Shown piece by piece: positions 9,827 through 35,658 of a DNA stretch of 36,783 nucleotides (its first letter is position 1; the number at the start of each line of letters is the position of its first letter). The DNA comes from Candidatus Rokuibacteriota bacterium (GTDB lineage Bacteria > Methylomirabilota > Methylomirabilia > Rokubacteriales > CSP1-6), in assembly GCA_030647435.1 (NCBI GenBank), contig JAUSJX010000043.1:1-36783 (forward strand). Direction: 5' to 3'. The position numbers were made by a program, and so were the translations under genes. Under the pieces are notes generated by a model. It saw only the letters and a list, made by a program, of their open reading frames with translations, was not told the DNA's origin and ran no database searches.

Positions 9827-9866
9827 GGGTTGTTATTCTATCCCGCCGTCCAAGTCCGCGCCACGT

Positions 9867-9895
9867 TTGACATCCCTGGTCCTGCCATGTAGGGT
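9867..9895 (+). promoter_or_regulatory. Leaderless promoter of glnD
   Basis: A perfect -35 TTGACA (9867-9872), a 17-nt spacer and a -10-like TAGGGT (9890-9895). The ATG of glnD begins 6 nt after the -10, where transcription should start. No Shine-Dalgarno is present, so the mRNA is probably leaderless. Confidence 0.65.
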
Positions 9896-9901
9896 TTCTG
9901 C

Positions 9902-12607
9902 ATGTCTGCGGACTTGTTCCACCAACTTCGGCGCGTGGAGGCGCAGGCGGAGCGGGGCTTCGAAGGCACGGCCGCCGAAGGTGCGGAGCGCCGGCGCCGG
10001 CTGAGGCTCGAGCTCCTCCGCCAGCACCTCGCCCAGAACGTCGATTTCCTCAAGGCCGCCCACCTCGGCGGCGCCTCGGGCCAGCAGTCGGTGCAGGCCT
10101 ATGCGGCCTTCATGGACGGCTTCCTCTCGACGATCTTCCGCCTGGCCGTGGCGGACGCCAAGAAGGAGGGCGCCGTCCCCGGGGCGATCGTGCTCGTGGC
10201 CTTGGGCGGCTACGGGCGCGGGGAGCTGGGCCCGCTCTCCGACCTGGACCTCATGGTCATCTACGACGGCGAGATGGGGCCCTTCGTCCAGCGCGTCACG
10301 CAGGTGCTGCTCTACACGCTGTGGGACCTGGGGCTGACGGTCGGGCATTCGGTCCGGAGTCTTCCCGACTGCGTCGCCATGGCCCGCACGGATTTCGCGT
10401 CGCGCACCTCCATGCAGGAGGCGCGCTACGTGATCGGCGACCGGCGGCTCTTCCAGCGCTTCCGCCGCGTGCTGGCAGAGAACGTCTACCGCAAGGACTT
10501 CGGCCAGTTCCTGGAGACGGCGCTGACCGAGCGGGACCAGCGCTACCGGAAGTTTGGCGGCTCGCCCTACATGGGCGAGGCCAACGTCAAGGAGTCGGCG
10601 GGCGGCCTGCGAGACCTCCACACGGCGATGTGGCTCGCCTCGACCAAATTCGGCGCGCGCACCCTGCGGGATCTCCTCGAGAAGCGGCTGATCACCCAGC
10701 GCGAGGAGCGGCTGACGGATGCGGCCCTGACCTTTCTCTGGCGCGTGCGTAACGAGCTCCACTTCCTCTCGGGCCACAAGAACGACGTGCTCTCGCGCGA
10801 CGTTCAACCGCAGATCGCCAAGCACTTCGGGTACGAGAGCGACGAGGTCTCGCTCGACGTCGAGAAATTCATGCGCGACTACTACCTCCACGCCCGCGTC
10901 ATCCACCGGGTGTCGAGCCGCCTGATCGCGCGCTGCCAGGAGACGCTCTCGCGGAGAGGCACCGCGCTGCGCCGGCTCCGCCAGGCGGCGCTGGCCGACG
11001 GGCTCTTCGTGATGGACGAGCGCATCCACCTCGTCCACGCGGACGGCCGTGACTTCCGCGCCGAGCCCGCGCGGCTCATGAAGGCCTTCTGGCACTCGCA
11101 CCGGCTCGGGTTCGAGCTGGGCGTGGACGTGGAGCGGGCGGTCGAGGAGGCCCTCGACCTCGTGGACGACGGCTTCCGCCGCTCGCCGGAGGCGCGCGAG
11201 CTCTTCCTCGACATCTGCCGGAACTGGGGGCGCGTGGCGCAGACGCTCCGCCAGATGCACGAGGTGGGCTTTCTCGGGCGCTACCTGCCCGAGTGGGACG
11301 CGCTGACCTGCCTCGTCCAGTACGACGTCTACCACAAGTTCACGGCGGACCAGCACTCGCTCCTCGCCGTGGAGAACCTCGAGGCGCTGGCGCCGGGCGC
11401 GTCCGCCTCCTCCGAAGGGATCGCGCAGGTCCTGAACGAGGTCCACCGGCCGGACCTCCTGATGCTGGGCATGCTCCTGCACGACATCGGCAAGGGCAAG
11501 GGGCACGGCCACGTCGCCAAGGGCATTCCGCTCGCCGAGGAGCTGACGGCGCGCATCGGGCTCGAGGGAGAGGCCGCAGGCGCGGTGGTCTTCCTGGTCG
11601 CCCAGCACGTCGCGCTCTCGCACATCGCCCAGCGGCGCGACGTCAACGATCCCAAGACGGTCGAGGCGCTGGCCGCGCTCTGCGGCACGCCCGAGCGCCT
11701 CCGCAAGCTCTACCTCCTCACCTTCGCCGACATGCGCGCCGTCGGCCCCGGCGTCATGACGGGCTGGCAGGCGCAGATCCTCTGGGAGCTCTACGGCGCC
11801 GCGCTCCAGCGGTTGACGGGCGGCCGCCCTGAGAAGCTCACGCTCCAAGACGTCGCCCAGCGCGTCCTGGCCGAGCTCCGGGACGCGGGCCTCAAGCGCG
11901 CGGTGCCGGGGCACCTCGCCATGACCTCGGAGCGCTACCTGTCGACGACACCGGCGGCGAGGATCGCGGCGCACATGAGGCTCATCGAGCGCCTCGAGGA
12001 CGAGCTGGTGGCGACCGAGCTCTTCCACCACCCGGACCTGGGCTCCTCGGACCTCGTCATCGTCACGCGCGACGTGCCGGGGCTCTTCTCCCTCATCGCG
12101 GGCAGCCTGGCCGCCAACGGCATCAACATCCTCTCGGCCCAGATCCACACGCGCGCCGACGGCATCGCCATCGACACCTTCCAGGTCAACGACCCCTTCG
12201 GCGAGGCGGTGACCGAGGAGGCGCGCTGGCGCCGGACGCTCCAGTCGCTGCGCCGCGTGCTCCTGGGCGAGCAGACGGTGGAGGAGCTCCTCGCCGTGCG
12301 GCGGGGCAGCCGCTCCGGCGACGAGCCGGTCCCGGGCCCGGCCAAGGTCTCCGTGGACAACCACCTCTCGGACACGCACACCGTGGTCGAGGTCAAGTGC
12401 CCAGACCGCGTGGGCCTCCTCCACCTCATCACCCGGACGCTGGCGGGGTTCGAGCTGTCGATCGCGAGCGCGCGCATCGCCACGGACATCGACCACGCCT
12501 TCGACACCTTCTACGTCGCGGACCCGCACGGCCTCCGCATCGAAGATCCCGACGAGATGGCCCGCGTGCGCGGAGCGCTGGAAGACGCGCTCCTGAAGCC
12601 GCTGTAG
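9902..12607 (+). CDS. glnD: Bifunctional uridylyltransferase/uridylyl-removing enzyme (PII regulator)
   Basis: Predicted 901-residue GlnD, the nitrogen sensor that uridylylates PII (GlnB/GlnK) when glutamine is low and removes UMP when it is high. Domains in order: nucleotidyltransferase with GGYGRGELGPLSDLD (102-116; Asp114 and Asp116 bind metal); the GlnD-specific helical region with GEANVKESAGGLRDL; an HD phosphohydrolase with LLHDIGKGKGHGH (His527-Asp528); and two C-terminal ACT domains, about 716-790 (IVTRDVPGLFSLIAG) and 826-895 (EVKCPDRVGLLHLI), which sense glutamine. Length equals the usual 850-930. All catalytic residues look intact. The start sits directly at the predicted transcription start. 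Its TAG is immediately followed by the ATG of a CDP-alcohol phosphatidyltransferase. No PII or glutamine synthetase gene is in the window. Confidence 0.96.
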   Translation: MSADLFHQLRRVEAQAERGFEGTAAEGAERRRRLRLELLRQHLAQNVDFLKAAHLGGASGQQSVQAYAAFMDGFLSTIFRLAVADAKKEGAVPGAIVLVALGGYGRGELGPLSDLDLMVIYDGEMGPFVQRVTQVLLYTLWDLGLTVGHSVRSLPDCVAMARTDFASRTSMQEARYVIGDRRLFQRFRRVLAENVYRKDFGQFLETALTERDQRYRKFGGSPYMGEANVKESAGGLRDLHTAMWLASTKFGARTLRDLLEKRLITQREERLTDAALTFLWRVRNELHFLSGHKNDVLSRDVQPQIAKHFGYESDEVSLDVEKFMRDYYLHARVIHRVSSRLIARCQETLSRRGTALRRLRQAALADGLFVMDERIHLVHADGRDFRAEPARLMKAFWHSHRLGFELGVDVERAVEEALDLVDDGFRRSPEARELFLDICRNWGRVAQTLRQMHEVGFLGRYLPEWDALTCLVQYDVYHKFTADQHSLLAVENLEALAPGASASSEGIAQVLNEVHRPDLLMLGMLLHDIGKGKGHGHVAKGIPLAEELTARIGLEGEAAGAVVFLVAQHVALSHIAQRRDVNDPKTVEALAALCGTPERLRKLYLLTFADMRAVGPGVMTGWQAQILWELYGAALQRLTGGRPEKLTLQDVAQRVLAELRDAGLKRAVPGHLAMTSERYLSTTPAARIAAHMRLIERLEDELVATELFHHPDLGSSDLVIVTRDVPGLFSLIAGSLAANGINILSAQIHTRADGIAIDTFQVNDPFGEAVTEEARWRRTLQSLRRVLLGEQTVEELLAVRRGSRSGDEPVPGPAKVSVDNHLSDTHTVVEVKCPDRVGLLHLITRTLAGFELSIASARIATDIDHAFDTFYVADPHGLRIEDPDEMARVRGALEDALLKPL

Positions 12608-13195
12608 ATGCTCGGTCACTACAAGGCCCCGCTGCACCGCTTCTTCGACCCTGTCGCGCGGCTCCTCCTTCGCGCGCGGGTCCGCCCGAACCATCTCACC
12701 GTGCTGGGGCTTGGCGTGAGCATCGCTGCGGCCTACGTCTTCTCCGTGGGGCGCCTGCGCTGGGGGGCGGCGCTGCTCGCGGTGGCGGGGCTCTTCGACT
12801 TCTTCGATGGTGCGGTCGCGCGCCTCGCGGGCTCGGACAGCGACTACGGCGCGTTCCTCGATTCCGTGGTGGATCGCTACTCGGACTTGGCCGTCCTGCT
12901 CGGCATCCTGGTCTACTACGAGCACACGGCCGACACGCCGGGCGCGATCCTGACCATGGCCACGCTCGCCGGCACGGTCATGGTCAGCTACACGAAGGCG
13001 CGCGCCCAGTCCATCGGCGTGAGCTGCGAGATCGGCGTGATGGAGCGTCCGGAGCGGCTCATCGCTCTCATCGCGGGGGCGACGTTCCATCTGCTCACGC
13101 CCGCCATGGCATTGCTCGCCGTGCTGACCAACGTGACGGCGATCCAGCGGATCGTCTACACCCGGAAGATCGTCCGCGACACGTCCGTGCGGTAG
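12608..13195 (+). CDS. CDP-alcohol phosphatidyltransferase-family membrane protein
   Basis: Predicted 195-residue integral membrane enzyme. The family signature DGxxARxxxxxxxxGxxxDxxxD is complete in DFFDGAVARLAGSDSDYG followed by AFLDSVVDRYSD (about 64-93), so it should be active. It has about six hydrophobic segments. Relatives transfer a phosphatidyl or phospho-alcohol group from a CDP-activated donor (phosphatidylglycerophosphate, phosphatidylserine and phosphatidylinositol-phosphate synthases). The YTKARAQSIGVSCEIGVMERPER block resembles the phosphatidylinositol-phosphate-synthase-like group, but substrate is uncertain. It begins directly after the glnD stop codon, so translation is probably coupled. 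The transglycosylase gene starts 9 bp downstream. Confidence 0.88.
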   Translation: MLGHYKAPLHRFFDPVARLLLRARVRPNHLTVLGLGVSIAAAYVFSVGRLRWGAALLAVAGLFDFFDGAVARLAGSDSDYGAFLDSVVDRYSDLAVLLGILVYYEHTADTPGAILTMATLAGTVMVSYTKARAQSIGVSCEIGVMERPERLIALIAGATFHLLTPAMALLAVLTNVTAIQRIVYTRKIVRDTSVR

Positions 13196-13204
13196 ACTCA
13201 AGAT

Positions 13205-15298
13205 ATGCGACGGGCGCTCGCTGCCGTCGGATGCCTCGCCCTCCTGGCGCTCACCGTCCCCGTCCGGGCGGCAGGGCCCACGGTCCCGCGCTTGTCGCCC
13301 GAGGCGCGCGAGCGCTTCGCCGCCGCGCTCGGCGCGTACAGGGCCCAGGACTGGGCGCAGGCCGCGCGCGAGCTCGGCGAGGTCGGCCGCATTGCATCCC
13401 CTATCGCCGAGTACGCGCTGCTCCACCAGGCCGAGAGCCTGGCGCGCCTTGGCGACGCCTCCGCCGCGCGCGCCGCGGCGCAGCAGGCCGCCGACGCCGC
13501 GCCCGACAGCCGCGCCGCGCCGCCCGCGCTTCTCCTGGCCGCCGAACAGGCTTCGCGGATTGGAGACGACGCGGGCGCGGCCGGGCTCTGGCGCCGATTC
13601 CTCGACCGGTTCCCCGACCACGCCCTGGCGCCGCGGGCGCGGCTCCGCATGGGCCAGTCTCTCGCAGCGGCTGGGCGCGCGGGCGAGGCCGCGGTCGCGT
13701 TCCGCGATCTCTGGCTTTCCGCCCCCTCGACGCCGCAGGCCGATGCAGCGGCGCGGGAGCTTCGCGCCCTCGAGGCGCGACGTCTTCCCGTGGCCCCACT
13801 CACCCCGGCTCAGCGCGTCGAGCGCGCGGAGCGCCTGGCGGCAGCCGGTGTCGGTGACCAGGCGCGCACCGAGGCGGAGGCGGTCCTCGCCGGAGCGCCG
13901 CCCGTTGACTTGACGCTGAAGGCGCTCCGCGTGGTGGTGGACGGCGCGCGGCGCTCGGGGCGCGACGATGTGGCGCTCACCGCGGTCAACCGCGGGCTCG
14001 GGCTGTCGCCCGCCGACAAGCGCGCGCCGTGGCTCCTCGAGTCAGCGAAGATCCAGCAGAGGAAGAACCGGGACGGCGCCATCGCCGCGGTGGATCGGCT
14101 CGTTGCCGATTCCCCGAAGGCGCCGGAAGTCCCCGAGGCGCTCCTGCTCAAGGCGCGGCTCCTCGAATCGGGCCCCGACCCGAAGTCGGCCGAGCCCGCG
14201 TATCTCAGGCTGGCGCACGGCTATCCGGAGTCCGAGGAGGGGCTACGCGCGGCGTGGCGGCTCGGCTGGCTTTCGTGGCTGCGCGCAGAGTATGCCGAGG
14301 CCGCCGAGCGCTGGGGCCGCATCCTGGGCGTCCGGACGGCGAGCCAGGGCTATCGCGACGCCTCGATGTACTGGATCGGGCGCACGCATGAGCAGCGCGG
14401 GGATGCGGAAGGCGCGGCCAGGCAGTTCGCCAGTGTCGTGGCCGAGGCGCCGCGCAGCTATTACGGCGTATTGGCAGCGCACCGCGCGCCGCGCGCCCAG
14501 CCGAACCAGGGCCGCAACCCCCGCTCGGCCCAGCTCGCGGCCTCGCTGCCGGTCGACCCGCGCGAGACGCTCCAGGCCGACGCGCCATACGCGCGCGTCG
14601 AGGCGCTCCGCGCCGTCGGGCTCGGCGATTTCGCCGACGAGGAAATGGACGAGGCCGTGCGGCGCTCGACGGGCGATCTCCGTCGGCTCTACGCGCTCTC
14701 GGCCGCCTACGCGCAGGAGGCGCGACACTTCCAATCGCTTCGCATCCTGCGGCGGCACTTCATCGGTCTCGCCCGCAGCGCCCCGGCCGCCCTGCCGCGG
14801 GCCTTCTGGGACTTCTTCTACCCGCTCGGCTGGCGCACGGAGCTGAACGACGCCGCCACGCGCGCGGCGCTGGACCCGTATTTCGTCGCCGCCGTCGTGC
14901 GCGAGGAATCATCTTTCGACCCGCAGGCGCGATCGCGCACGGGCGCGCGCGGGCTCATGCAGCTCATGCCCGACACCGCGCGCCAGCTGGCCAAGGGGCG
15001 CGGGCTGCCGGCGGGCGACGACATGCTGGCCGATCCCGGCGCCAACCTCGCCCTCGGCAGCGCCGACCTGGCGGGGCTCATGAAGGAGTTCGGGGAGCCG
15101 CGGCTGGCCGTCGCTGCCTACAACGCGGGGCCCGCGCGCGTGCGCGAATGGTGGAAGGCCCGGGCCACGGACGATGTCGAGGTCTGGGTGGAGCTCATCC
15201 CCTTCGATGAGACGCGCTTTTTCGTCCGGCGCGTGATGTTCTCGTGGGAGGAGTACCGCCGCCTCTACGGCGCGCCGCTGGCGGGCGCCCGGCCGTGA
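13205..15298 (+). CDS. Soluble lytic murein transglycosylase (Slt70-like)
   Basis: Predicted 697-residue periplasmic peptidoglycan lyase. A signal peptide (about 1-23, ending PVRAAG) is followed by a long Ala-rich superhelical region with TPR-like repeats (about 30-530). The C-terminal SLT domain (about 555-670) has catalytic Glu568 in REESSFDP, then GARGLMQLMPDTA and AAYNAGPARV, ending with FVRRVMFSWEEYRRLYG. It cleaves the MurNAc-GlcNAc bond to give 1,6-anhydro-MurNAc. Length and layout match Slt70. TAGACT lies 6 nt before the ATG, suggesting a leaderless start, although the gene could also be read through from the phosphatidyltransferase. The TGA overlaps the GTG of the RDD gene. Confidence 0.93.
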   Translation: MRRALAAVGCLALLALTVPVRAAGPTVPRLSPEARERFAAALGAYRAQDWAQAARELGEVGRIASPIAEYALLHQAESLARLGDASAARAAAQQAADAAPDSRAAPPALLLAAEQASRIGDDAGAAGLWRRFLDRFPDHALAPRARLRMGQSLAAAGRAGEAAVAFRDLWLSAPSTPQADAAARELRALEARRLPVAPLTPAQRVERAERLAAAGVGDQARTEAEAVLAGAPPVDLTLKALRVVVDGARRSGRDDVALTAVNRGLGLSPADKRAPWLLESAKIQQRKNRDGAIAAVDRLVADSPKAPEVPEALLLKARLLESGPDPKSAEPAYLRLAHGYPESEEGLRAAWRLGWLSWLRAEYAEAAERWGRILGVRTASQGYRDASMYWIGRTHEQRGDAEGAARQFASVVAEAPRSYYGVLAAHRAPRAQPNQGRNPRSAQLAASLPVDPRETLQADAPYARVEALRAVGLGDFADEEMDEAVRRSTGDLRRLYALSAAYAQEARHFQSLRILRRHFIGLARSAPAALPRAFWDFFYPLGWRTELNDAATRAALDPYFVAAVVREESSFDPQARSRTGARGLMQLMPDTARQLAKGRGLPAGDDMLADPGANLALGSADLAGLMKEFGEPRLAVAAYNAGPARVREWWKARATDDVEVWVELIPFDETRFFVRRVMFSWEEYRRLYGAPLAGARP

Positions 15299-23054: not shown

Positions 23055-23621
23055 GTGTTGATCCAGGAACTGACTAGGCAGGCGAGTCTGGATCTGCTGG
23101 CTCGTACGCATCTCGGTAGATTAGCGTGCACCCAAGGGGCCCGGCCCTACGTCGTGCCCGTCTATTTTGCCTACGACAATGATTACCTCTATAGCTTCTC
23201 CACGGTCGGACAAAAGATCGAGTGGATGCGCGCCAACCCGCTGGTGTGCGTCGAGGCGGACGAGGTGGTGAGCCCGGAGGAGTGGGTGAGTGTCATTGTC
23301 TTCGGTCGCTACGAGGAGCTGCCGGATACGCCCGAATGGCAGGGGGCGCGCACACTCGCCCACACACTGCTGAAACGGAGCGCCGTGTGGTGGGAGCCCG
23401 CTTACGTGAAAACGATCCTCCACGGCACAGAGCGCCCGCTGGTGCCGGTCTTCTACCGCATTCACGGCCTTCAGATTACCGGCCACCGCGCCACCCCTGA
23501 GCCGGTGACGCCGGCTCACACAAGCCTTTCGTCGATGACCGACTCGGGCGAAGACGGTCGGCTGCAAAACCTTCTGCGGCAGGCCCGGGGGAGCCTGCTC
23601 GCGCGTCATCTGAGGAGGTGA
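23055..23621 (+). CDS. Pyridoxamine 5'-phosphate oxidase (PPOX)-like flavin-binding protein
   Basis: Predicted 188-residue cytoplasmic split-barrel protein (Pyridox_ox_2 type). The opening LARTHLGRLACTQGARPYVVPVYFAYDNDYLYSF is characteristic, followed by KIEWMRANPLVCVEAD and VSVIVFGRYEEL, which build the FMN or F420 site. Family members bind flavin, F420 or haem; the biochemical role is usually unknown. The GTG start has GGGAGAG upstream. The C-terminal 35 residues are a disordered-looking tail. Its TGA overlaps an ATG (TGATG) that opens the broken CBS frame, and a BON-domain gene follows. The set PPOX-CBS-BON is typical of bacterial stress gene neighbourhoods. Confidence 0.87.
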   Translation: MLIQELTRQASLDLLARTHLGRLACTQGARPYVVPVYFAYDNDYLYSFSTVGQKIEWMRANPLVCVEADEVVSPEEWVSVIVFGRYEELPDTPEWQGARTLAHTLLKRSAVWWEPAYVKTILHGTERPLVPVFYRIHGLQITGHRATPEPVTPAHTSLSSMTDSGEDGRLQNLLRQARGSLLARHLRR

Positions 23622-23925: not shown

Positions 23926-24600
23926 ATGACACAGGCAATCAAGAAGAGTGACGCTCAGATCCATCATGACGTGCTCGAGGAGCTCAAGTGGGACTCCCGC
24001 GTCGATGAGACGGAGGTCGGGATCCAGGTGGCCGGCGGCGTTGTCACGCTCACCGGCACGGTGACGAGCTGGGCAAAGCGCATGGCGGCCCAGGAGGCGG
24101 CCCGTCGCGTGATCGGCGTCCTCGACGTGGCGAACGACATCAACGTGAAAGTGCCGGGCGGCCTCGCACGCACCGACACCGAGATCGCTCAGGCGGTGCG
24201 GCGGACGCTCGAATGGGACGTGTTCGTCCCCGAGGAGCAGATCACGTCCACGGTCACGGACGACTGGGTCACGCTTGAAGGCACGGTCGAGCGCTGGAGT
24301 CAGCGCGAGGACGCGGAGCGGGCTGTCCGCAATCTAACGGGTGTGAAGATCGTGGTGAACAAGATCACAGTGACGCCGGCGAAGCCGGTGACCGAGGACG
24401 TCAAAAAGGCGATCGAGCAGGCCCTGGAGCGGCGCGCCGAACGCGAGGCCCGGCAGATCGGCGTCGATGTCCGGGACGGCACCGTGACACTGACGGGGCC
24501 GGTCCATTCGTGGGCGGAGCGCAAATCGGTGCTGGCGGCCGCCCGCTTCACTCCTGGTGTCCGCGCCGTCGAGGACCATCTGCGAACAGAGCCGGTCTGA
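23926..24600 (+). CDS. Triple BON-domain protein
   Basis: Predicted 224 residues with three BON domains (about 10-77, 86-152 and 155-222). Each has the pattern D/E-xx-I-xx-V-xxGVVTLTG-xVxSWAxRxxAxxAAxxxxGVxxVxNxI. The first and third copies both contain GTVTLTGxVxSWAxR-like cores. There is no signal peptide, so it should be cytoplasmic, unlike OsmY. BON domains bind phospholipid or small molecules and often occur in osmotic or general stress proteins. AAAGGAG precedes the ATG at good spacing. It lies in the stress-flavoured set after the PPOX gene. Confidence 0.92.
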   Translation: MTQAIKKSDAQIHHDVLEELKWDSRVDETEVGIQVAGGVVTLTGTVTSWAKRMAAQEAARRVIGVLDVANDINVKVPGGLARTDTEIAQAVRRTLEWDVFVPEEQITSTVTDDWVTLEGTVERWSQREDAERAVRNLTGVKIVVNKITVTPAKPVTEDVKKAIEQALERRAEREARQIGVDVRDGTVTLTGPVHSWAERKSVLAAARFTPGVRAVEDHLRTEPV

Positions 24601-25332: not shown

Positions 25333-25516
25333 CGCCCGGCGATCAGTTCTCCACGCGGACGATCGGGAGCGGCCCGGCTGGAGTCCGCCGCGGACCTCGT
25401 CCGGGCACCAGTCGCCGCGCCGCCGGCCTGAATGAAGCGTCATCCCCGCCTCAGCCAGGCTTCCCAGGCTACTCCGCATCCTTGCACACCGGGTGCCTCG
25501 GAATGGGGGAGATTCC

Positions 25517-27511
25517 GTGCCCGACATGAGCGTCCTGCGCGAGAACATGGTGCGGTATCAGATCGCCGCTCGCGGCGTGACCGACGAGCGGGTGCTCGAC
25601 GCCATGCGGATTGTCCCTCGAGAGGCATTCATGCCCGAGGAGCTCGCGGAGTTCGCTTACGAAGACACCCCGCTGCCGATCGAGGAAGGTCAGACGATCT
25701 CCCAGCCCTATATCGTCGCTCTCATGATCGCCGCCATCCAGCCGGAGCCACAGGACCGGGTGCTCGAGATCGGCACCGGCTCGGGGTCCGCCGCGGCGGT
25801 CCTGTCCCGGGTGGTCGGCCAAGTCTATACGGTCGAACGGCACGAGGCGCTGGTCGACCTGGCGAGCCGCCGCCTCCGGACCCTGGGATACGGCAACGTC
25901 GAGGTGCTCCACGGCGACGGCAGCCTCGGCTGGCCGGAACATGCCCCGTACGACGGGATCATCGTGACGGCGGGCGGGCCGCACGTGCCGCGCCAGCTGC
26001 GCGAGCAGCTGGCCGTCGGCGGCCGCCTCGTGATTCCGATCGGGCCCGACCCGCGCCAGCAACACCTCGTCCGGATGACTCGTGTCACCCGCGAGCGGTT
26101 CGAGGAGGAGCAGCTCGGGCAGGTCCGCTTCGTTCCACTGGTGGGTGAGGACGCGTGGGAGGGCCCCGGGGTCGTTCCGGTGGGCGTTTCCCCGCCACGA
26201 GGCACCCGGCCCGCGACGACCGCGGCGCTGATTCGCGAGGCGGCCGAGCCGATCGCCGACATCGACGATGTGGACCTCGGCCCGCTCCTCGATCGGATCG
26301 GCCAGTCGAAGGTCGTCCTCCTGGGTGAAGCGACCCACGGCACCTCCGAGTTCTACCAGATGCGGGCCCGCATCAGCCGGGAGCTGATCACGAAACGCGG
26401 CTTCACGATCGTCGCCGTGGAAGCCGACTGGCCCGATGCCGCGCGGGTCGATCGCTACGTGCGCCACGGCCCAACGGCGCAGGAAGGGCATCCCGCTTTC
26501 AGCCGCTTTCCGACCTGGATGTGGAGAAACGCCGAGGTCCACGACTTCGTCGAATGGCTGCGATCCTGGAACGCGGACCTGCCCGACCCCGCCCGCCGGG
26601 CCGGCTTCTACGGCCTCGATCTCTACAGCCTCTTCACCTCGATCGCCGCGGTGCTGCGCTACTTGGACGAGGTGGATCCGGACACGGCCGCGCTGGCGCG
26701 CCGGCGTTACGCCTGTCTCAGCCCCTGGGAGCGGAACCCCGCCGTCTATGGCCGCGCCGCCCTCACGGGCCAGTACCGGACCTGCGAGGAGCCGGTCACC
26801 CGCATGCTCCGCGACATGATGGAGCGCCGCCTCGAGTACACCGTTCACGACGGCGATCGCTTCCTGGATGCGGCCCAAAACGCCCGGCTGGTGGCCAACG
26901 CGGAGCGCTATTACCGCGTGATGTACTCCGGCCGGGTGGAGTCGTGGAACCTACGGGACCGCCACATGTTCGACACCCTGGACATGCTTCTCAAGTTTCA
27001 CGGGCCCGAGGCCAGGGCCGTGGTCTGGGAGCACAACTCCCACGTCGGCAACGCCGCGGCCACCGAGATGGGCGCCCGCGGCGAGTTCAATGTCGGCCAG
27101 CTCTGCCGTGAGCGGTTCGGCCGGGAGGCCTTCCTCCTGGGATTCGGTACCGACCACGGGACCGTCGCGGCGGCGCATGACTGGGACGCGCCGATGGAGG
27201 TCATGGCGGTCCGGCCCTCCCATGCGGAGAGCTACGAGCGGCTGTTCCACGAGGCCGGCGTGCCGGCCCTCCTGCTTCCGCTCGGGCCGGCGGCCCGGCC
27301 CGAGGTCCGGGACGAGCTGCGGCCGCCCCGTCTGGAGCGCGCCATCGGGGTAGTCTACCGGCCGGAGACGGAGCTGCAGAGCCACTACTTCCAGGCCGTG
27401 CTCCCCATTCAGTTCGACGAGTACGTCTGGTTCGACGAGACCCGGGCGGTCCGGGCCCTTCCGGCGCACGCGCGCGAGGGGGTGCCGGACACTTACCCGT
27501 TCGGCGTATGA
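25517..27511 (+). CDS. Fusion: protein-L-isoaspartate O-methyltransferase plus erythromycin-esterase-like domain
   Basis: Predicted 664 residues. Residues 1-215 are a complete PCMT: MVRYQIAARGVTDERVLDAM, the substrate loop EGQTISQPYIVALM, and the SAM site LEIGTGSG (83-90). Residues about 235-655 are an erythromycin-esterase-family domain with GEATHGTSEF (270-279), VAVEADWPDAARV and WEHNSHVGNA (about 502-511), supplying the His/Glu/His set of EreA/EreB. PCMT repairs isoaspartyl damage; Ere domains hydrolyse macrolide lactones in resistance proteins, but many homologues have unknown substrates. GTG 25517 has GGGGGAG at good spacing; ATG 25526 is the alternative. The stop overlaps the next ATG by 4 bases. 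No signal peptide, so cytoplasmic. Confidence 0.92.
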   Translation: MPDMSVLRENMVRYQIAARGVTDERVLDAMRIVPREAFMPEELAEFAYEDTPLPIEEGQTISQPYIVALMIAAIQPEPQDRVLEIGTGSGSAAAVLSRVVGQVYTVERHEALVDLASRRLRTLGYGNVEVLHGDGSLGWPEHAPYDGIIVTAGGPHVPRQLREQLAVGGRLVIPIGPDPRQQHLVRMTRVTRERFEEEQLGQVRFVPLVGEDAWEGPGVVPVGVSPPRGTRPATTAALIREAAEPIADIDDVDLGPLLDRIGQSKVVLLGEATHGTSEFYQMRARISRELITKRGFTIVAVEADWPDAARVDRYVRHGPTAQEGHPAFSRFPTWMWRNAEVHDFVEWLRSWNADLPDPARRAGFYGLDLYSLFTSIAAVLRYLDEVDPDTAALARRRYACLSPWERNPAVYGRAALTGQYRTCEEPVTRMLRDMMERRLEYTVHDGDRFLDAAQNARLVANAERYYRVMYSGRVESWNLRDRHMFDTLDMLLKFHGPEARAVVWEHNSHVGNAAATEMGARGEFNVGQLCRERFGREAFLLGFGTDHGTVAAAHDWDAPMEVMAVRPSHAESYERLFHEAGVPALLLPLGPAARPEVRDELRPPRLERAIGVVYRPETELQSHYFQAVLPIQFDEYVWFDETRAVRALPAHAREGVPDTYPFGV

Positions 27512-28425
27512 CCGGGTCCCTGCCCTTGAAGGAGATCGCGGCCGTCCAGGCCAGGCTGGCCTGGATGCGCGAGGCGCGCATCTGGCCCAACGGGCGGCGC
27601 TATCTCTGGACCGACGCGTTCGGCGTGGTGCTGCTGGTGTCGCTGTGGCAGGAGCGCCACGACGATCGCTTGCTGCGCGAATGCGAATGGGTCGTCGCCG
27701 AGGTCGACAGGGTGCTGGGGCGGCCGCGGGGAATCCGGATCGGCGAAGAGCCCGACCGGGATGGCCAGTACTTTCATTACCTGGCCATGTGGATCTTCGC
27801 GCTCGACCGATTGGGGGCCATCGACCCCCGCTATCGCCAGAAGGCGATCGCGCTCGTGCGCGACATTCACCCCGCTTTCGTCGTTCCAGGGACCGGCGTC
27901 ATCTGGAAGATGCGCGAGGACTTGAGCGGCCCCTATCCGGGCTTCGGGCTGGGCTCGCTGGATGCCTTTCACGGGCTGGTGGTCTATCGCCTGCTGGACC
28001 CGGCCGGGCTCGCGCCGGAAATCGCGGACCTGAAGGCGCTGGTCGAGACGAGCTATCGCGCCCTCACGATCACCCAGGACCTCGGCCTCGGCATGATGCT
28101 CTGGATGAGCCACTTCTTTCCCGACGAGCCGTGGGCCGTGCTTCAGCGCGCGAGGGCCCTCGCCATGCTGGACCGGATGTGGGTCGACCCGCCCGGCTAC
28201 TTCTGCCGCGAGCCGACGCACCGCCAGGTCAAGCTCGCCTTCGCCAACTACGGCGTCTCGCTGGGCCTCCAGGCCGTGCCCGCGCACGGCGATCGGGTGC
28301 GGCGACTGAACGCGTTTTTCGACTCGTACCGCTCCGGCGACGAGTACGACACCAATGCCATCACGCACGTCATGGCGTGCACGTCCCATTTTCCGGGACG
28401 GTTTCTTCGCCCGGTCGTTCCTTGA
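27508..28425 (+). CDS. Unrecognised 305-residue protein coupled to the PCMT/esterase fusion
   Basis: I cannot name this protein. It is soluble-looking, helical and Trp/Tyr-rich, with no signal peptide. Distinct blocks are WPNGRRYLWTDAFGVVLLVS (about 26-45), DGQYFHYLAMWIFALDRLG (about 85-103), GLGSLDAFHGLVVYRLLDP (about 147-165) and GLGMMLWMSHFF. The alternating helix and G/W/H loop pattern resembles alpha/alpha-barrel proteins (glycoside hydrolase or lanthionine-cyclase-like), without a catalytic signature I can identify. The ATG overlaps the preceding TGA (ATGA), so translation is coupled and a shared role with the fusion protein is likely. Confidence 0.8.
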   Translation: MTGSLPLKEIAAVQARLAWMREARIWPNGRRYLWTDAFGVVLLVSLWQERHDDRLLRECEWVVAEVDRVLGRPRGIRIGEEPDRDGQYFHYLAMWIFALDRLGAIDPRYRQKAIALVRDIHPAFVVPGTGVIWKMREDLSGPYPGFGLGSLDAFHGLVVYRLLDPAGLAPEIADLKALVETSYRALTITQDLGLGMMLWMSHFFPDEPWAVLQRARALAMLDRMWVDPPGYFCREPTHRQVKLAFANYGVSLGLQAVPAHGDRVRRLNAFFDSYRSGDEYDTNAITHVMACTSHFPGRFLRPVVP

Positions 28426-28561: not shown

Positions 28562-29668
28562 ATGAGCGTGGTGGCGCGTGGTATCGGGGACGAGCTCGGA
28601 CCCGCCAAGATTCTGATTCTTCGCGAGCCTCGGGTGGGCCTCGAAGCGGTGGTGGTGGTCGATAACGTCGCGTGCGGGCCGGCCATCGGCGGGGTGCGCA
28701 TGGCTCCGGATGTGACGCTGGAGGAGGTCTGTCGGCTCGCGCGGGCGATGACCTTCAAGAACGCCGCCGCCGGGTTGCCGCATGGGGGCGGCAAGTCCGG
28801 TATCCTCGCCGACCCAACCTGCTCGCCGCCGCAGAAGGAGGCGCTCGTCCGTACCTTTGCGCGGATGATCAGGGAGCTCACCGAGTACATTCCGGGCCCG
28901 GACATGGGGACCAACGAGGCGTGCATGGCGTGGATCAAGGACGAGATCGACCGGGCCGTTGGCCTGCCGCGGGCGCTGGGCGGCATTCCGCTCGATGAGA
29001 TCGGGGCGACCGGCTTCGGTCTCGCCGTGGCGGCCGAGGTCGCGACGGCGGAAGCTGCGCTGTCCCTGAAGGGAGCGCGTGTGGCCATTCATGGGTTCGG
29101 TGCGGTAGGTCAGCACGCGGCACGCTTCCTCGTCCAGCGGGGTGCGCGGGTCGTCGCCGCGTCCGACAGCCGAGGCGCGACCTACAACTGCGACGGGCTC
29201 GATGTGGACGCGCTGATCGCGCACAAGCGGGCCGGTCGGGGAGTGAGCGCGTTCCCGACGGGTTCTCCGATGAAGAGCGAGGACGTGATCGCCGTCGAGT
29301 GTGAGATCTGGATTCCTGCGGCGCGCCCGGACACGCTGACCGCGGACAATGTGGGTCGCCTTCGGGCCAAGCTGGTGCTCCAGGGTGCAAACATTCCCGC
29401 GACCGACTCGGCAGAGGAAGAGATGCATGCCCGTGGAATCCTGAACCTGCCGGATTTCGTCGTGAATGCCGGCGGTGTGATCTGCGCGGCGGTCGAGTAC
29501 CACGGCGGTACCCAGGCCCAGGCCTTCGCGACGATCGAGGAGAGGATCCGGGCCAATACCGGCGAGGTGCTGGAGCGCAGCCGGACGCATCACCTACGCC
29601 CACGGCAAGCCGCCACTCAAATGGTGCGGAGCCGGATCGATGAAGCGATGCAGTACCGGAGGCCCTGA
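28562..29668 (+). CDS. Glu/Leu/Phe/Val dehydrogenase
   Basis: Predicted 368-residue NAD(P)-dependent amino-acid dehydrogenase. The substrate-binding half has IGGVRMAPDVTLEEVCRLAR, the active-site block FKNAAAGLPHGGGKSGI (second Lys catalytic) and PGPDMGTNEACMAWI with the catalytic Asp. The Rossmann half has IHGFGAVGQHAARFL. It reversibly deaminates glutamate or a branched or aromatic amino acid. Length (368) is nearer to leucine/phenylalanine dehydrogenases (~350-365) than to glutamate dehydrogenase (~410-450), so substrate is open. GAGGAG sits 8 nt before the ATG. It lies 136 bp after the unrecognised gene and converges on the DUF2238 pair. Confidence 0.9.
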   Translation: MSVVARGIGDELGPAKILILREPRVGLEAVVVVDNVACGPAIGGVRMAPDVTLEEVCRLARAMTFKNAAAGLPHGGGKSGILADPTCSPPQKEALVRTFARMIRELTEYIPGPDMGTNEACMAWIKDEIDRAVGLPRALGGIPLDEIGATGFGLAVAAEVATAEAALSLKGARVAIHGFGAVGQHAARFLVQRGARVVAASDSRGATYNCDGLDVDALIAHKRAGRGVSAFPTGSPMKSEDVIAVECEIWIPAARPDTLTADNVGRLRAKLVLQGANIPATDSAEEEMHARGILNLPDFVVNAGGVICAAVEYHGGTQAQAFATIEERIRANTGEVLERSRTHHLRPRQAATQMVRSRIDEAMQYRRP

Positions 29669-29738: not shown

Positions 29739-30365
29739 TCACAGCACCGCCTCGCTGAGACTTGGGTCACGGCCCGGCTCCCGTCGCTCAAGTCGCTGCC
29801 AGCCTGCGGTCAGAAGCAGCGCGACCACCGTCCCGCAGGTCGCCGCGAGCATGTCGTGCTGCGCGTCCCAAGGGTCGCCCTGCGCCCCGAGGAAGGCCGC
29901 CCCGAGATCGGGTCGGGTGAGCTGGGCCACCACCGACTCGATGATCTCCCAGGCCCCGGCCAGCCCGAGCTGGGTCATGAAGGCCAGGTAGAAGAGCAGC
30001 AGGCGCCGGGCGCCGGTGAGCCGGCGGAAGACCTCCAGGAGAGGGTAGGTGAGGAGGAGGCCGAAGGCGAAGTGCGTGACCCGGTCGAAGTGGTTCCGCT
30101 CCAACCCGAGGAGGCCCTGGAGCCAGTGACCGACGGGCACCTGCGCATAGGTGTAGTGGGCCCCGACGGTGTGAAACGCGAGGAAGCCCCCGACCAGCAT
30201 GTACGAGGCGGTCGAGAGCGGCACGCTCCGGCGCCCGAAGACGAGGGCCCCGACGAAGGTCAGCGGCAGGATGCTCGAGAGGGCCCAATTCTGGGAATCG
30301 AGGGGCGCCAGGCCCATGGCGCCCCAGAAGACGAGATAACCGGCGAGTAACACTGACTGAATCAT
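29739..30365 (-). CDS. DUF2238 (YjdF-like) membrane protein, copy 1
   Basis: Predicted 208-residue inner-membrane protein with about six helices. Family landmarks are FHTVGAHYTYAQVP, ERNHFDRVTHFAFGLLLTYP, AWEIIESVVAQL and GAQGDPWDAQHDM. Function of the family is unknown. It is a clear paralogue of the gene immediately upstream and starts 8 nt after that gene's stop. There is no good Shine-Dalgarno; TAGAAT lies 5 nt before the ATG, which suggests a separate leaderless transcript from inside the end of the first copy. Confidence 0.87.
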   Translation of the reverse strand: MIQSVLLAGYLVFWGAMGLAPLDSQNWALSSILPLTFVGALVFGRRSVPLSTASYMLVGGFLAFHTVGAHYTYAQVPVGHWLQGLLGLERNHFDRVTHFAFGLLLTYPLLEVFRRLTGARRLLLFYLAFMTQLGLAGAWEIIESVVAQLTRPDLGAAFLGAQGDPWDAQHDMLAATCGTVVALLLTAGWQRLERREPGRDPSLSEAVL

Positions 30366-30373
30366 GCCGGATT

Positions 30374-31057
30374 CTACCCGGCCGGACTCGATGCCCGCAA
30401 CTGATCGTGCCGGCCGGACCGCCAGCGGTGTGTCGCGGCGGTCGCGGCTGTGGCCACGATGGCCCCCAGGGCGGCCAGCGACATATCCTTCTGCGCGTCC
30501 CAAGGATCGCCCTGCGCCCCCACGTAGGCGATGCCGAGATCGCCGCCGAACACCACGGCGGCCCCCCACTCGATCAGCTCGAAGCTGGCCGAGCTCGAGA
30601 TCGTCAGGTCCATCGGCAGGAAATACCCCCAGAACCCGCGCAGCCCCGTCACGCGAATGACGACCTCCCGGACCGGATACGTCAGGAGAAGCCCGTAGAT
30701 GAAGTGCGCGATGCGGTCGAAGTTGTTCCGTTGCCAGCCGAGTGCCGCGTTGAGGCTCCGGCCGGTGAGCGCGGTGGCCCAGGCGTCGTACGGAACCTCG
30801 GAGTAGGTGTAGTGCGCGCCGATCACGTGGAAGCAGAGGAACACGAAGATCAGGGTGTACGACAGGTGGGACAACGCCAAGCGCCGGTGCGCCAGGGCGA
30901 GGACGAGCACGGCAAGCACGACCAGCGCGTTCTCGAGCGCCCAGTCCGCGCGGTGGCGAGGCCGGATGGCCAGGAGGAGCCAGATGACAGCGAAGAGCGC
31001 AGCGAGTCCCGCGACGTAGCGGCGCCCGGGCACGTCACGCGTGCTCCGGTTCGACAT
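30374..31057 (-). CDS. DUF2238 (YjdF-like) membrane protein, copy 2
   Basis: Predicted 227-residue inner-membrane protein with about six helices. It carries the same landmarks as its downstream neighbour: FHVIGAHYTYSEVP, QRNNFDRIAHFIYGLLLTYP, SFELIEWGAAV and GAQGDPWDAQKDM. The conserved His, Asp and Glu residues at membrane edges suggest metal or small-molecule binding, but no activity is known to me. The ATG has a strong GGAGGTG site, unlike copy 1. It is the first gene of a leftward pair formed by tandem duplication; divergence between copies is considerable, so the duplication is old. Confidence 0.9.
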   Translation of the reverse strand: MSNRSTRDVPGRRYVAGLAALFAVIWLLLAIRPRHRADWALENALVVLAVLVLALAHRRLALSHLSYTLIFVFLCFHVIGAHYTYSEVPYDAWATALTGRSLNAALGWQRNNFDRIAHFIYGLLLTYPVREVVIRVTGLRGFWGYFLPMDLTISSSASFELIEWGAAVVFGGDLGIAYVGAQGDPWDAQKDMSLAALGAIVATAATAATHRWRSGRHDQLRASSPAG

Positions 31058-31272
31058 GTACACCTCCTGACCGCTCGAAGTGGTATCGGAATCCGCTCGC
31101 GCGGCGGCGCCGCGCGCTCGTGCAAGGGTACCTCGTGTCGCGGGGCACGGCCGACCCATTCGAGGTGCCTGCGCCTCGTGGGTCGGGTTGCCGGCGGGGA
31201 GGTGACGCGGTCCAAGCTTCCAATTTCCTTTACGTTTCGATCCGGCACCGCTCATGCCGCATCTCCCGTCAA

Positions 31273-31380
31273 GTAAAGAATTTCGAGGTCGCGCGGTAGT
31301 TCGAGCTCATGGCCGACGTCCTGGAGCTCAAGGGTGAGAACCCGTTCCGCATCCGGGCGTACCGCCGCGCCACGCAGAAC
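31273..31380 (+). pseudogene. polX: N-terminal remnant of DNA polymerase/3'-5' exonuclease PolX
   Basis: In one frame from 31273 the sequence reads KNFEVAR, a TAG (31297-31299), then FELMADVLELKGENPFRI and RAYRRATQN. This is the start of bacterial PolX, whose first residues form a helix-hairpin-helix domain. Homology stops at about 31380, roughly 18 bp before the IS inverted repeat. The in-frame stop and the truncation mean no working PolX. The rest of the gene is not found on the other side of the IS. Confidence 0.75.
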
Positions 31381-31480
31381 AGAGATGGCCGCGCTTTTTT
31401 GGACAAACATTCGAGCTGCGTTGAGTGGATGAACTGCTCCATCGTAACGGCGACAATGTCAATGCAAATGAGTAGCAACC

Positions 31481-31840
31481 ATGAAACGCTCACGCAGGAA
31501 CCACGCATCGAAGTGCAAGGCCCGGGTTGCCCTGGAAGCGCTACGGGGCGATGCCACGCTGGCCGAACTTGGATCACGCCACGGCGTACACGCCACCCAA
31601 ATCGCCGCCTGGCGCACGCAGGTGCTTGAGCACCTGAGCGAGGTATTCGACAACGGACATCCGGTACTCAAGAACGCCGAGCGCCACATCCGGGATCTGC
31701 GCGCCAAGGTGGGGGAACTCACCATGGAGCGTGATGTTTTGGCCGGTGCGCTCGGCCGCTTCGGGCTGCCGAGCGCAAAGCGCTCATCGACCGGGACAGC
31801 ACGCGCTCCATCATGCGCAGGATTGACGAGTTGCACCTGA
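31481..31840 (+). CDS. IS3-family transposase OrfA
   Basis: Predicted 119-residue product. The first ~95 residues are a normal OrfA: KCKARVALEALRGDATLAEL, the helix-turn-helix LGSRHGVHATQIAAWRTQVL, and a leucine-zipper-like helix ending LTMERDVLAGALGR. The last ~25 residues are read out of the native frame past the orfA/orfB junction. OrfB lies in the -1 frame, as is usual for programmed frameshifting in this family, but no A-rich slippery heptamer is obvious here. Confidence 0.85.
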   Translation: MKRSRRNHASKCKARVALEALRGDATLAELGSRHGVHATQIAAWRTQVLEHLSEVFDNGHPVLKNAERHIRDLRAKVGELTMERDVLAGALGRFGLPSAKRSSTGTARAPSCAGLTSCT

Positions 31841-32525
31841 CCCATCCCTTCCTCGGTGCCCGACGCCTTGCCCGCATGCTCCAGCGCGAGGGCGTCGCCG
31901 TGGGGCGCCGCCATGTGGGGACCCTCATGCTCCTGATGGGAATCGAGGCGAGCTACCGCACGAAGCGAACCAGCCTCCCGGACAAGGGCCACCGGATCAC
32001 CCGTACGTGCTTCGCGATGTCGTCATCGAGCGGCCCAATCAGGTCTGGGCCACCGACGTGACCTATCTGCCCATGGCCAAGGGCTTTGCCTACCTGGTGG
32101 CGATCCTGGATCTCTACAGCCGCAAGGTGCTCGCCTTTCGGGTCTCCAACACCCTTGCCACCGATTTCTGCATCGAGGCGCTGGAAGAGGCGCTGCACCG
32201 CTACGGCACCCCCGAGATCTTCAACACCGACCAGGGCAGCCAATTCACCGACGGGGACTTCACCGCGGTTCTGGACACCAAGGGCGTTCGCATCAGCATG
32301 GACGGCACGGGGCGCTGGATCGATAATGTGTTCGTCGAGCGGCTGTGGCGGAGCGTGAAGTACGAGAGCATCTACCTCCACGCCTACGAGACTCCCCGGG
32401 AGGTGACAGTCGCGCGTGCGTGCTACGTCGAGTTCTACAATGCACACCGGCCGCATCAGAGCCTCGAATATCGAACACCGGACGAGATGTACTTCGGAAC
32501 GCACGAGCTGAAAGAGGCAGCGTAG
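31765..32525 (+). pseudogene. IS3-family transposase OrfB (DDE integrase), broken
   Basis: The orfB frame begins AAERKALIDRD and jumps straight to STRSIMRRIDELHLTHPF. The ~30-35 residues normally lying between these blocks are missing, which indicates an in-frame deletion. At about 31990-31997 the frame changes: KGHRI ends one frame, and HPYVLRDVVIERPNQVW opens the next. The catalytic core is intact in that second frame: Asp in WATDVTY, Asp in NTDQGSQF and Glu in FVERLWRSVKYE. It ends with NAHRPHQSLEYRTPDEMYF, typical of IS3. With one deletion and one frameshift it cannot give a full integrase. Confidence 0.85.
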
Positions 32526-33002: not shown

Positions 33003-33191
33003 GGCCGGGTCTGGCTGCTCGGCCCCGGCGGGAAGCCTCACGTCGGGCGCCGCAGGCTTGGCATTACCGACGGTTCCTTCACCGAGGTGCTGGAGGGTGC
33101 ACTCGACGAACAACAGGAAGTCATCACGGGCGTGACCGCTCCCGGCCAGCAGCCAGCCGGCTCGGCCGGTGGCCCGCGCCTCAGGTTCTGA
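33003..33191 (+). pseudogene. C-terminal tail of a HlyD/MacA-type efflux adaptor
   Basis: The frame runs GRVWLLGPGGKPHVGRR then RLGITDGSFTEVLEGALDE, QQEVITGV, and ends GGPRLRF with TGA at 33189-33191. This is the membrane-proximal end of a periplasmic adaptor of an RND or MacAB efflux pump (pattern VWVLxxDGKPxxxxVxxGxxDGxxxEVxxGLxxGxxVVxG). A TGA lies directly upstream in frame and no N-terminal part or pump gene is present, so it is an orphan fragment just before ppsA. Confidence 0.65.
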
Positions 33192-33219
33192 GTACACTGG
33201 GCAAGGAGAAAATGCTGTC

Positions 33220-35658
33220 ATGATCTCCTACATTCGCTGGTTTCGGGATATCCGGCTGGCCGACGTTCCGCTCGTCGGCGGGAAGACCGCCTCGCTTGGG
33301 GAGCTCTACGGTGAGCTGGGTGCTGCGGGGGTGCGCGGTCCCGACGGGTTTGCTATCACGGCCGAGGCCTACCGGGCGCTGCTTGACGCCAACGGTCTCC
33401 GGGAGCGCGTTGCCACGATTCTCAAGGGAGTGACGGGCGAGGACGTGGCGGCCCTGGCCGCTGCCGGCGCGGAGCTGCGCGGACTCGTAGAGGCGGCCGC
33501 ACTGCCGCCGGGCCTCGAGGAAGACGTCATCGCGGCCTACCGGGCCCTGGCGCGCGAGTACGGGTCTGATCTACCCGCCGTGGCGGTCCGGTCGAGCGCG
33601 ACCGCGGAAGACCTTCCACAGGCGAGCTTCGCCGGCCAGCACGAGAGCTACTTGGGCGTCCGCGGGGAGGCGGCGCTCCTGGCCGCCTGTCGGTGCTGCT
33701 TTGCCTCGATCTTCACCGACCGGGCCATCGTCTACCGCATCCAGAACGGGTTCGACCACCTGAGCGTGCTGCTGTCGGTCGCGGTACAGAAAATGGTGGC
33801 TTCGGAGCGTGCCTCCTCGGGCGTCATGTTCACGGTGGATCCGGACAGTGGCTTCCCGGACGTGGTGCTCATCAACGGGGCCTTCGGGCTGGGGGAGGCG
33901 GTGGTGCAGGGGCAGCTCGATCCCGATGAGTTCCTGATCTTCAAGCCGACGCTTCGCACCGGCCACCAGGCCCTGCTCAGACGGAAGATCGTCCGCAAGA
34001 CGTGGAAGCTCATCGCGGGAGTCGGCGGGCAAGCCGAGCGTGCAGAGGTACCGGTGGAAGCGCAGCTTTTGGCGAGCCTCACCGATAGCGAGGTGTTGGA
34101 ACTCGGCCGCTTTGCGGTGGCCATCGAGGAGCACTACTCGCGCAAGGTTGGGCGGTCGCTCCCCATGGACATCGAGTGGGCCAAGGATGCCGATGATGGC
34201 CGGCTCTACATCCTCCAGGCACGACCCGAGACGGTGCACCGCGCCGAGCGGCGGGCCGTGATCGAGGTCTTCTCGCTGCAACCCGGGATCGCGCCTGAGC
34301 GGCTGGCGAGCGGGGCGGCCATCGGCCAGCGTATCGGCGTGGGTCCGACGCGGTTCCTCCGTGACCCACGCGACCTCGAAGCCTTCCGGGCCGGCGAGGT
34401 GCTCGTGGCCTCCATGACCGACCCCGACTGGGAGCCGATCATGAAGCGCGCCGCGGCCATCGTGACCGACCGTGGCGGCCGCACCTGTCACGCGGCCATC
34501 GTCAGCCGCGAGCTGGGCGTGCCGTGCGTGGTCGGCACCGGCAACGGCACCGAGGTGTTGCGCGACGGCCAGGTGGTTACCGTGTCCTGTGCCGAGGGGG
34601 AGACCGGATCCGTGTATCGCGGGGCCCTGCCGTTCGAACGCCGGCAGGTCGACCTCGCGGCGCTGCCCAGACCCGCGACCAAGGTGATGCTCAATGTCGG
34701 CAACCCGGGCGAGGCCTTCCGGCTGGCCACGCTGCCCAACGACGGCGTAGGGCTCGCCCGGATCGAGTTCATCATCGGCAGCTTCGTGCGCACCCACCCA
34801 CTCGCCCTCCTCTACCCGGAGCGCGTGCGCGATCCCAAGGTTCGAGCGGAGATCGATGCGCTGACCCAAGGATATGCGGATCGTGGGGAGTACTTCGTGG
34901 ACCGCCTGGCGGAAGGGGTGGGGATCATCGCCGCCGCCTTCTACCCCAAGGATGTGATCGTGCGCCTTTCGGACTTCAAGTCCAACGAATACGCGGGCCT
35001 TCTCGGAGGGCGGGACTTCGAGCCGGTGGAAGGCAATCCCATGCTCGGTTTCCGGGGCGCCTTCCGCTACGCGCACCCGCGGTACCGGGACGCCTTCGGG
35101 CTCGAGTGCCGCGCCCTGCGCCGGGTTCGCGAGCGGATGGGGCTCACCAATGTGAAGCTCATGATCCCGTTCTGCCGAACGCCTCGGGAAGGCCAGCGCG
35201 TGCTCGAGCTGCTGGCCGCCGACGGGCTCACGCGTGGGGAGAACGGCCTCGAGGTCTACGTGATGGCCGAGATCCCCTCCAACGCGATCCTGGTCGACGA
35301 ATTCGCCGCCCTGTTCGACGGCTTCTCTATCGGGTCAAACGATCTCACCCAGCTGGTGCTGGGGGTGGACCGGGACTCGGAGCTGGTCGCGCCCGAGTTC
35401 GACGAGCGCAACCCCGCCGTGCTCAGCGCGATCGGCGCGATCATCGACGGGGCGCGGCGGGCAGGGCGGAAGGTGGGGATCTGCGGCCAGGCGCCGAGCG
35501 ACTATCCCGACATGGTTCGATTCCTCGTGGGGAGAGGGATCACCAGCATCTCGCTGAATCCAGACGCGGTGGTGCGCGGCCTGGAAGCCGTCGCAGCAGC
35601 CGAGGCTGACCTTGGTGTCCAGCCCGGAGTGCCTTTGGTGAAGGGCGGCCGGGCATAA
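33220..35658 (+). CDS. ppsA: Phosphoenolpyruvate synthase
   Basis: Predicted 812-residue cytoplasmic enzyme converting pyruvate, ATP and water to PEP, AMP and phosphate for gluconeogenesis. An ATP-grasp domain (1-350) has [11 protein letters not shown] and [20 protein letters not shown] swivelling phosphohistidine domain (about 380-455) has His424 in [17 protein letters not shown]. The TIM-barrel domain (about 470-795) has [31 protein letters not shown] and the catalytic Cys755 in [11 protein letters not shown]. Key residues align with E. coli PpsA His421 and Cys751, and length is near the usual 790. ATG 33220 has AAGGAG 12 nt upstream; ATG 33212 is out of frame and quickly stops. It is the only intact gene between the IS and the window end. 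Confidence 0.95.

Follow-up and report, generated by a model that had tools for sequence, protein, structure and literature searches.

A PCMT–erythromycin-esterase-family fusion and its unnamed partner protein: a candidate mobile module for low-oxygen maintenance

Contig JAUSJX010000043.1 of a Candidatus Rokuibacteriota bacterium (36,783 nucleotides, hereafter the window; part of a 5.79-Mb, 98%-complete genome) encodes a protein in which a protein-L-isoaspartate O-methyltransferase (PCMT) is joined to an erythromycin-esterase-family (EE) domain, followed directly by a 305-residue protein of an unnamed family (P305). On balance, we favour reading the fusion and P305 as a horizontally mobile module for maintenance under low oxygen or growth arrest. 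The pair is found across at least eight phyla, mostly in islands that appear to be induced by low oxygen, which suggests a survival kit of resting cells; the evidence suggests neither a wholly new system nor antibiotic resistance. In this module, the PCMT half would methylate isoaspartyl residues of ageing proteins. The EE half is predicted to be a metal-independent Glu/His hydrolase. Under the same stress it would hydrolyse an ester- or imide-type compound, which may be the methyl ester or succinimide that arises from the PCMT half. P305 would be a translationally coupled, optional, cytoplasmic toroid enzyme, probably acting on a sugar or glycosylated molecule. The features of the pair are as follows.

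25493..27511, forward strand: open reading frame (ORF) of the PCMT-EE fusion (672 aa; 34-sequence alignment A2 and AlphaFold2 model)
25541..26149, forward strand: PCMT domain, residues 17-219 (PF01135, E 7.8e-61; motifs VLEIGTGSG and QTISQP)
26150..26212, forward strand: disordered inter-domain linker (predicted local distance difference test, pLDDT, <50, lowest at residues 225-239; variable in the alignment)
26387..27442, forward strand: EE domain, residues 299-650 as matched (PF05139, E 3.5e-138)
27508..27511, forward strand: ATGA overlap of the fusion stop (TGA) and the P305 start (ATG), read from the sequence
27508..28425, forward strand: P305, unnamed family, predicted (alpha/alpha)6 toroid (305 aa; alignment, model and Foldseek)

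A first-pass annotation of this region had described a PCMT joined to an EE-type hydrolase, both halves complete, with a stop codon overlapping the start of a 305-residue protein, and each of these points is borne out. Fusion residues 17-219 match positions 4-208 of the 210 in the PF01135 profile, the PF05139 profile is covered from end to end (1-358/358; 463.9 bits against a cut-off of 26.4), and translational coupling of the fusion and P305 is likely given the ATGA overlap. Two in-frame codons, the GTG at 25517, preceded by GGGGGAGA, and the ATG at 25526, are likelier starts of the fusion than 25493. The fusion is entered in databases as PCMT, including the copies on Sinorhizobium meliloti megaplasmids, and no paper describing a PCMT-EE protein was found in the literature searched.

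The PCMT half scores above the curated cut-offs of NF001453 (249 against 188 bits) and TIGR00080 (215 against 159 bits). All 34 relatives in alignment A2 retain Q67, T68, S70, Q71 and P72, the glycine-rich positions G94, G96, S97 and G98, and E115. When the half is aligned to E. coli Pcm (3lbf) and 4l7v, S70 stands opposite the serine that we take to be the active-site residue of Pcm, and Foldseek matches the half to 2yxe and 3lbf (template-modelling score by target, TMt, 0.95 and 0.94, respectively). In architecture, S-adenosylmethionine motif and active-site serine, the first half of the fusion resembles stand-alone PCMT/PIMT enzymes such as Pcm, which, unlike the fusion, carry no EE domain. 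A PADLOC match of the fusion to 'mad2' was discarded, as it reflects the methyltransferase fold only.

Within the EE half, E279 and H282 (GEATHG, just upstream of the matched span), E310, and H514 and H517 (HNSH) are invariant in A2 and in alignment A3. By profile alignment, E279, H282 and E310 correspond to E47, H50 and E78 of EreC, which together with H289 are its catalytic residues (PMC7979712); H514/H517 would fall in the region of H289, as judged from the HNxH motif alone. Foldseek matches the half to the Bacillus cereus esterases 2qgm and 3b55 (TMt 0.82) and to EreC 6xcs (TMt 0.71), and in the alignment it is also nearer to these non-macrolide esterases than to EreC. BcR135/BcR136 (2rad, 3b55, 2qgm) and EreC (6xcq, 6xcs) have the same fold and the same GExxH / E / HNxH residues as the EE half but, unlike the fusion, are single-domain proteins. 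EreC cleaves macrolides, an activity not expected of the EE group to which the fusion belongs. An EE domain is likewise joined to another enzyme in Rv2030c of Mycobacterium tuberculosis, a phosphoribosyltransferase-EE protein of the hypoxia-induced HspX operon, which also encodes Hsp20, Usp and a kinase (PMC4410610). This too is a stress setting, but the partner of the EE domain is a phosphoribosyltransferase and not PCMT, and P305 is not mentioned for the operon.

The window P305 has no match in Pfam, NCBIfam, PDB sequences or PADLOC, nor in the phage records searched, and a sequence profile of P305 gave chance-level matches only in the PDB. When 84,980 species genomes were scanned with the window P305, 88 relatives were nonetheless recovered, from which 80 loci were kept (66 in Pseudomonadota, the rest in seven other phyla). 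These 80 relatives are about 58-75% identical, and 64 columns are invariant in a 46-sequence alignment (A1), so P305 is no chance ORF. The protein for which the first-pass annotation recognised no family is thus a member of an unnamed conserved enzyme family, and one of known fold. The model built from the 46 relatives is confident (pLDDT 91.8), with twelve helices forming the six hairpins of an (alpha/alpha)6 toroid, and its Foldseek matches are GH76 mannanases and sugar 2-epimerases (probability 1.00, E 1.7e-5 to 1e-3, template-modelling score by query, TMq, about 0.54-0.66). Mean entropy is 0.31-0.69 in the six modelled inner helices against 1.32-1.82 in the outer helices, as is usual for toroid enzymes whose active site lies at the centre, and the invariant residues include D36, D85, H90, E137, D152, Q190, N247 and D281. 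Given the structural neighbours and the conservation of the inner helices, P305 is probably a sugar-acting enzyme of this fold. The role of processing or binding partner proposed earlier is recast here as that of a probable sugar-acting toroid enzyme.

The GH76 alpha-mannanases (4v1s, 4boj) and the AGE / cellobiose 2-epimerases (5zhb, 3gt5) have the toroid in common with P305 at TMq 0.60-0.65, and a central conserved cavity is also predicted for P305, but they are 10-13% identical to it and no match to their catalytic pairs is seen. The columns of A1 contain no invariant Asp-Asp pair, whereas the catalytic residues of GH76 are consecutive (DD); this comparison is one of alignment columns and not of residues mapped by structure. 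The GH76 profile does not match the window P305 and matches three of the 46 relatives below its cut-off only (best E 0.012). Searched singly, P305 relatives give sub-threshold matches only, half of the best being to toroid glycosidases (GH127, GH76, GH88), and a truncated Rhizobium copy is annotated as GH76 by NCBI. A defence or phage role of P305 was rejected, as it matches neither PADLOC nor phage records. A 629-aa P305 'fusion' in locus L074 was also discarded; its N-terminal part has no domain, and the long frame probably results from an ORF run-on.

In 42 of the 80 loci, the fusion is the immediate upstream neighbour of P305 and shares its strand; in three more it is nearby. The spacing between the matched stretches is -7 to +145 nt, mostly <50 nt. 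Direct adjacency at this frequency argues that the neighbourhood is not due to chance. Among the remaining 35 P305 genomes, the fusion is encoded elsewhere in 30 (24/29 and 6/6 in two test sets). Counting copies truncated at contig ends, 74 of the 80 P305 genomes have it; one locus (L006) keeps a remnant only and five genomes have no trace of it. In the L006 remnant (1544-2191), a deletion has brought the start of PCMT up to the end of EE, and an intact P305 follows directly; the core of the fusion was either lost naturally or is missing through an assembly error in a metagenome-assembled genome. The three parts are therefore evolutionarily linked. The first-pass annotation had held that its system would fall if the third protein proved unlinked in other genomes: the genes are indeed non-adjacent in 35 of the 80 loci, but they co-occur in 30 of these.

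Linkage is tested more fairly by 249 genomes sampled evenly from one order than by the set of loci selected through P305. This sample contains about 21 fusions and nine EE proteins without PCMT (30 EE in all). P305 or fragments of it were detected in seven genomes, six of which also encode EE, against 30/249 overall (hypergeometric p 1.2e-5); when three genomes known beforehand are removed, three of the four P305 genomes have EE (p 0.004). P305 nearly implies the fusion, and the fusion does not imply P305. The distance matrices of the fusion and P305 are correlated (Mantel r 0.74, p 0.001, 21 loci), a correlation that shared descent also predicts.

P305 is scattered across the bacteria. In the phylum of the window it was detected in one of 95 genomes, the only one that also has the full fusion, so the two were probably acquired together. 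Eight other genomes of the phylum have EE without PCMT (a count from the match table). Two of these, from the same genus as the window, encode in place of PCMT-EE a protein like Rv2030c, in which EE is fused to a phosphoribosyltransferase (L089 460-2763 and L090 697-2820). In the P305 tree the phyla are intermixed, and few branches are strongly supported. Rhizobium plasmids carry copies of P305, and 201 plasmid records contain the fusion or one of its halves, 130 of them covering >=80% of the fusion. Base composition gives no sign of horizontal gene transfer, the G+C content of the fusion and P305 (0.69-0.70) being like that of the rest of the window. On one conjugative Rhizobium plasmid (L110 4028-6504), the fusion is intact but P305 is reduced to fragments that precede an IS110 transposase.

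We searched for FNR/FixK boxes (TTGAYN4RTCAA) within 300 bp upstream of genes, taking the expectation from dinucleotide shuffles. A perfect box precedes 11 of 40 fusions (0.000 expected), and a box with <=1 mismatch precedes 17 of 40 (1.1 expected). The other genes of the loci (n=583) have 21 perfect boxes, against 0.5 expected. In Bradyrhizobium diazoefficiens, bll4651 is induced under microoxia and is a direct FixK2 target; it is annotated as 'protein-L-isoaspartate O-methyltransferase', adjoins a nitroreductase gene and lies near phosphoenolpyruvate (PEP) synthase and CBS genes (PMC6515984). In locus L114, the fusion is on the reverse strand, divergent from nitroreductase, DnaJ, DUF302 and PEP synthase genes. 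This gene order is that of bll4651, blr4652 and blr4655, hence our inference that bll4651 too encodes the fusion. The L114 counterpart is a full fusion with a perfect box at 8623, 42 nt before its called start, while bll4651 itself is annotated as PCMT only, with no P305 reported beside it. An EcfG/RpoE2 general-stress promoter (GGAAC-N15-19-CGTT) before the fusion was rejected (three scattered matches in 41 loci), and a sigma-70 promoter scan gave no match.

In the window, the pair has the following island neighbours.

23055..23621, forward strand: pyridoxamine-5'-phosphate-oxidase-like protein (PF12900)
23926..24600, forward strand: OsmY-like protein with three BON domains (PF04972; NF007858 under its cut-off)
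28562..29668, forward strand: Glu/Leu/Phe/Val-type dehydrogenase, downstream of the pair (PF00208, E 4.6e-51)
29739..31255, reverse strand: two DUF2238 membrane proteins (PF09997)
33169..35658, forward strand: PEP synthase (TIGR01418, 1057.8 bits)

A relative of the dehydrogenase is present in L009, DUF2238 adjoins the fusion-P305 pair in L071, and PEP synthase is close to the fusion in L114. Across the loci, neighbouring families comprise Lon, FtsH, Hsp20, Cpn60, Usp, CBS, DUF2267, host-attachment/baeRF, PolX and phosphoribosyltransferases. Transmissible locus of stress tolerance islands are mobile clusters of Hsp20, FtsH, chaperones and proteases, and to our knowledge neither PCMT-EE nor P305 has been described in them. 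The window island contains an IS3-type transposase (31481-32525; HTH_Tnp_1 at 31481-31840, integrase core at 32007-32525). The start of a short adjoining ORF (31309-31629) resembles by eye the N-terminus of DNA polymerase X, with no Pfam match; related islands contain PolX genes, and the IS3 element may have disrupted one here. Two further observations concern frames lacking domains. A 1262-aa frame (9833-13621, reverse strand), antisense to a GlnD-like uridylyltransferase (9902-12607, forward strand) and the genes downstream of it, is probably an artefact of high G+C content. In a Planctomycetota locus (L117 5459-8499, reverse strand), frames of 651 and 362 aa with an ATGA-style overlap lie beside the fusion and have no Pfam match.

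Several observations weigh against a low-oxygen maintenance module made up of the fusion and P305. Most fusions in the order sample occur without P305, so that P305 would be optional and not needed by the fusion, and the share of linked loci may be inflated, since the window P305 served as the query with which the loci were collected. Boxes of the FNR type before stand-alone P305 genes are not above chance (2/32 against 0.95 expected). The window's own copy of the fusion has no such box; low-oxygen control there would be suggested by gene content only, and the phylum may use regulators other than FNR/FixK. The identity of bll4651 as the fusion draws on synteny and annotation; that low oxygen induces the Bradyrhizobium counterpart of the fusion, and that FixK2 controls it, would follow from one paper (PMC6515984) and synteny. 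The AlphaFold2 model of the fusion (pLDDT 78, predicted template-modelling score, pTM, 0.59) leaves the packing of the domains undefined and, given its pTM and unstructured linker, is silent on channelling or facing active sites.

A serious contender, though one we hold to be less probable, is that a low-oxygen stress island carries these genes as independent passengers, whose fusion or adjacency would serve co-regulation only and which would share no substrate. This would fit the islands in which P305 stands beside FtsH, Cu-ATPase, ZIP, Sir2, chaperonin or FAD/Rieske oxidoreductase genes, the many fusions without P305, and L006, which kept P305 and lost most of the fusion. Such independence is harder to reconcile with the tight spacing, the correlated distance matrices and the rarity of P305 without any fusion trace (5/80), even where the two are unlinked.

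We consider it unlikely that the three parts form a methylate-then-hydrolyse repair machine, in which the PCMT ester would lead to a succinimide, the EE half would hydrolyse the succinimide or the ester toward more L-Asp, and P305 would remove or read sugar adducts that these damaged proteins carry. Retention of the covalent fusion in the 42 clustered loci and in unlinked genomes, the invariant catalytic Glu/His of EE and the chaperone and protease neighbours are in keeping with such a machine. Against it, plain methyl-ester hydrolysis would reverse the repair step and no domain packing is predicted. Moreover, EE occurs equally with a phosphoribosyltransferase (Rv2030c, PMC4410610) and alone, so its substrate need not be the product of PCMT; its recurrence in the mycobacterial hypoxia operon argues for a substrate of its own. 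The methylate-then-hydrolyse chemistry conceived in the first-pass annotation is thus neither favoured nor contradicted by these data.

Inactivation of macrolides or self-resistance, one of the uses put forward in the first-pass annotation, is very improbable. The family name of EE and the conserved EreC catalytic residues are what recommend it. The Ere models, however, score far under their cut-offs (EreB 37.7 against 750 bits, EreD 23.4 against 800 bits), EE is much nearer to the non-macrolide B. cereus esterases than to EreC, the loci are stress islands with FNR/FixK boxes and not resistance contexts, and no resistance genes were identified beside the fusion in the window. Least probable of all is a graspetide-like maturation of a ribosomal peptide, with a precursor as the substrate of both a PCMT-type methyltransferase and of a homologue of EE: a PCMT-like methyltransferase is a common partner in graspetide loci and an EE homologue is present in some (PMC8939145), but the PCMT half is of the repair type by NF001453, TIGR04188 reaches 101.5 bits against a cut-off of 380, and no ATP-grasp gene is found among the window genes scanned or the top neighbour families listed.

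Protein damage during the long-term anoxic survival of non-growing cells is poorly understood. We know of no enzyme for the step after isoaspartyl methylation. It is a speculative and improbable, yet consequential, extension that the fusion and P305 form a dedicated low-oxygen repair pathway, in which EE would resolve the methyl ester or succinimide of PCMT enzymatically instead of by the inefficient spontaneous step, and P305 would treat sugar-derived damage on the same proteins. If so, EE would be the first such post-methylation enzyme, and one widespread in soil and symbiotic bacteria. The presence of the fusion on Sinorhizobium meliloti megaplasmids makes genetics immediately possible. The fusion of EE to PCMT here, and to a phosphoribosyltransferase in the mycobacterial dormancy regulon, in both cases within low-oxygen regulons, points to a shared, putative ester- or imide-hydrolysing step in dormancy.

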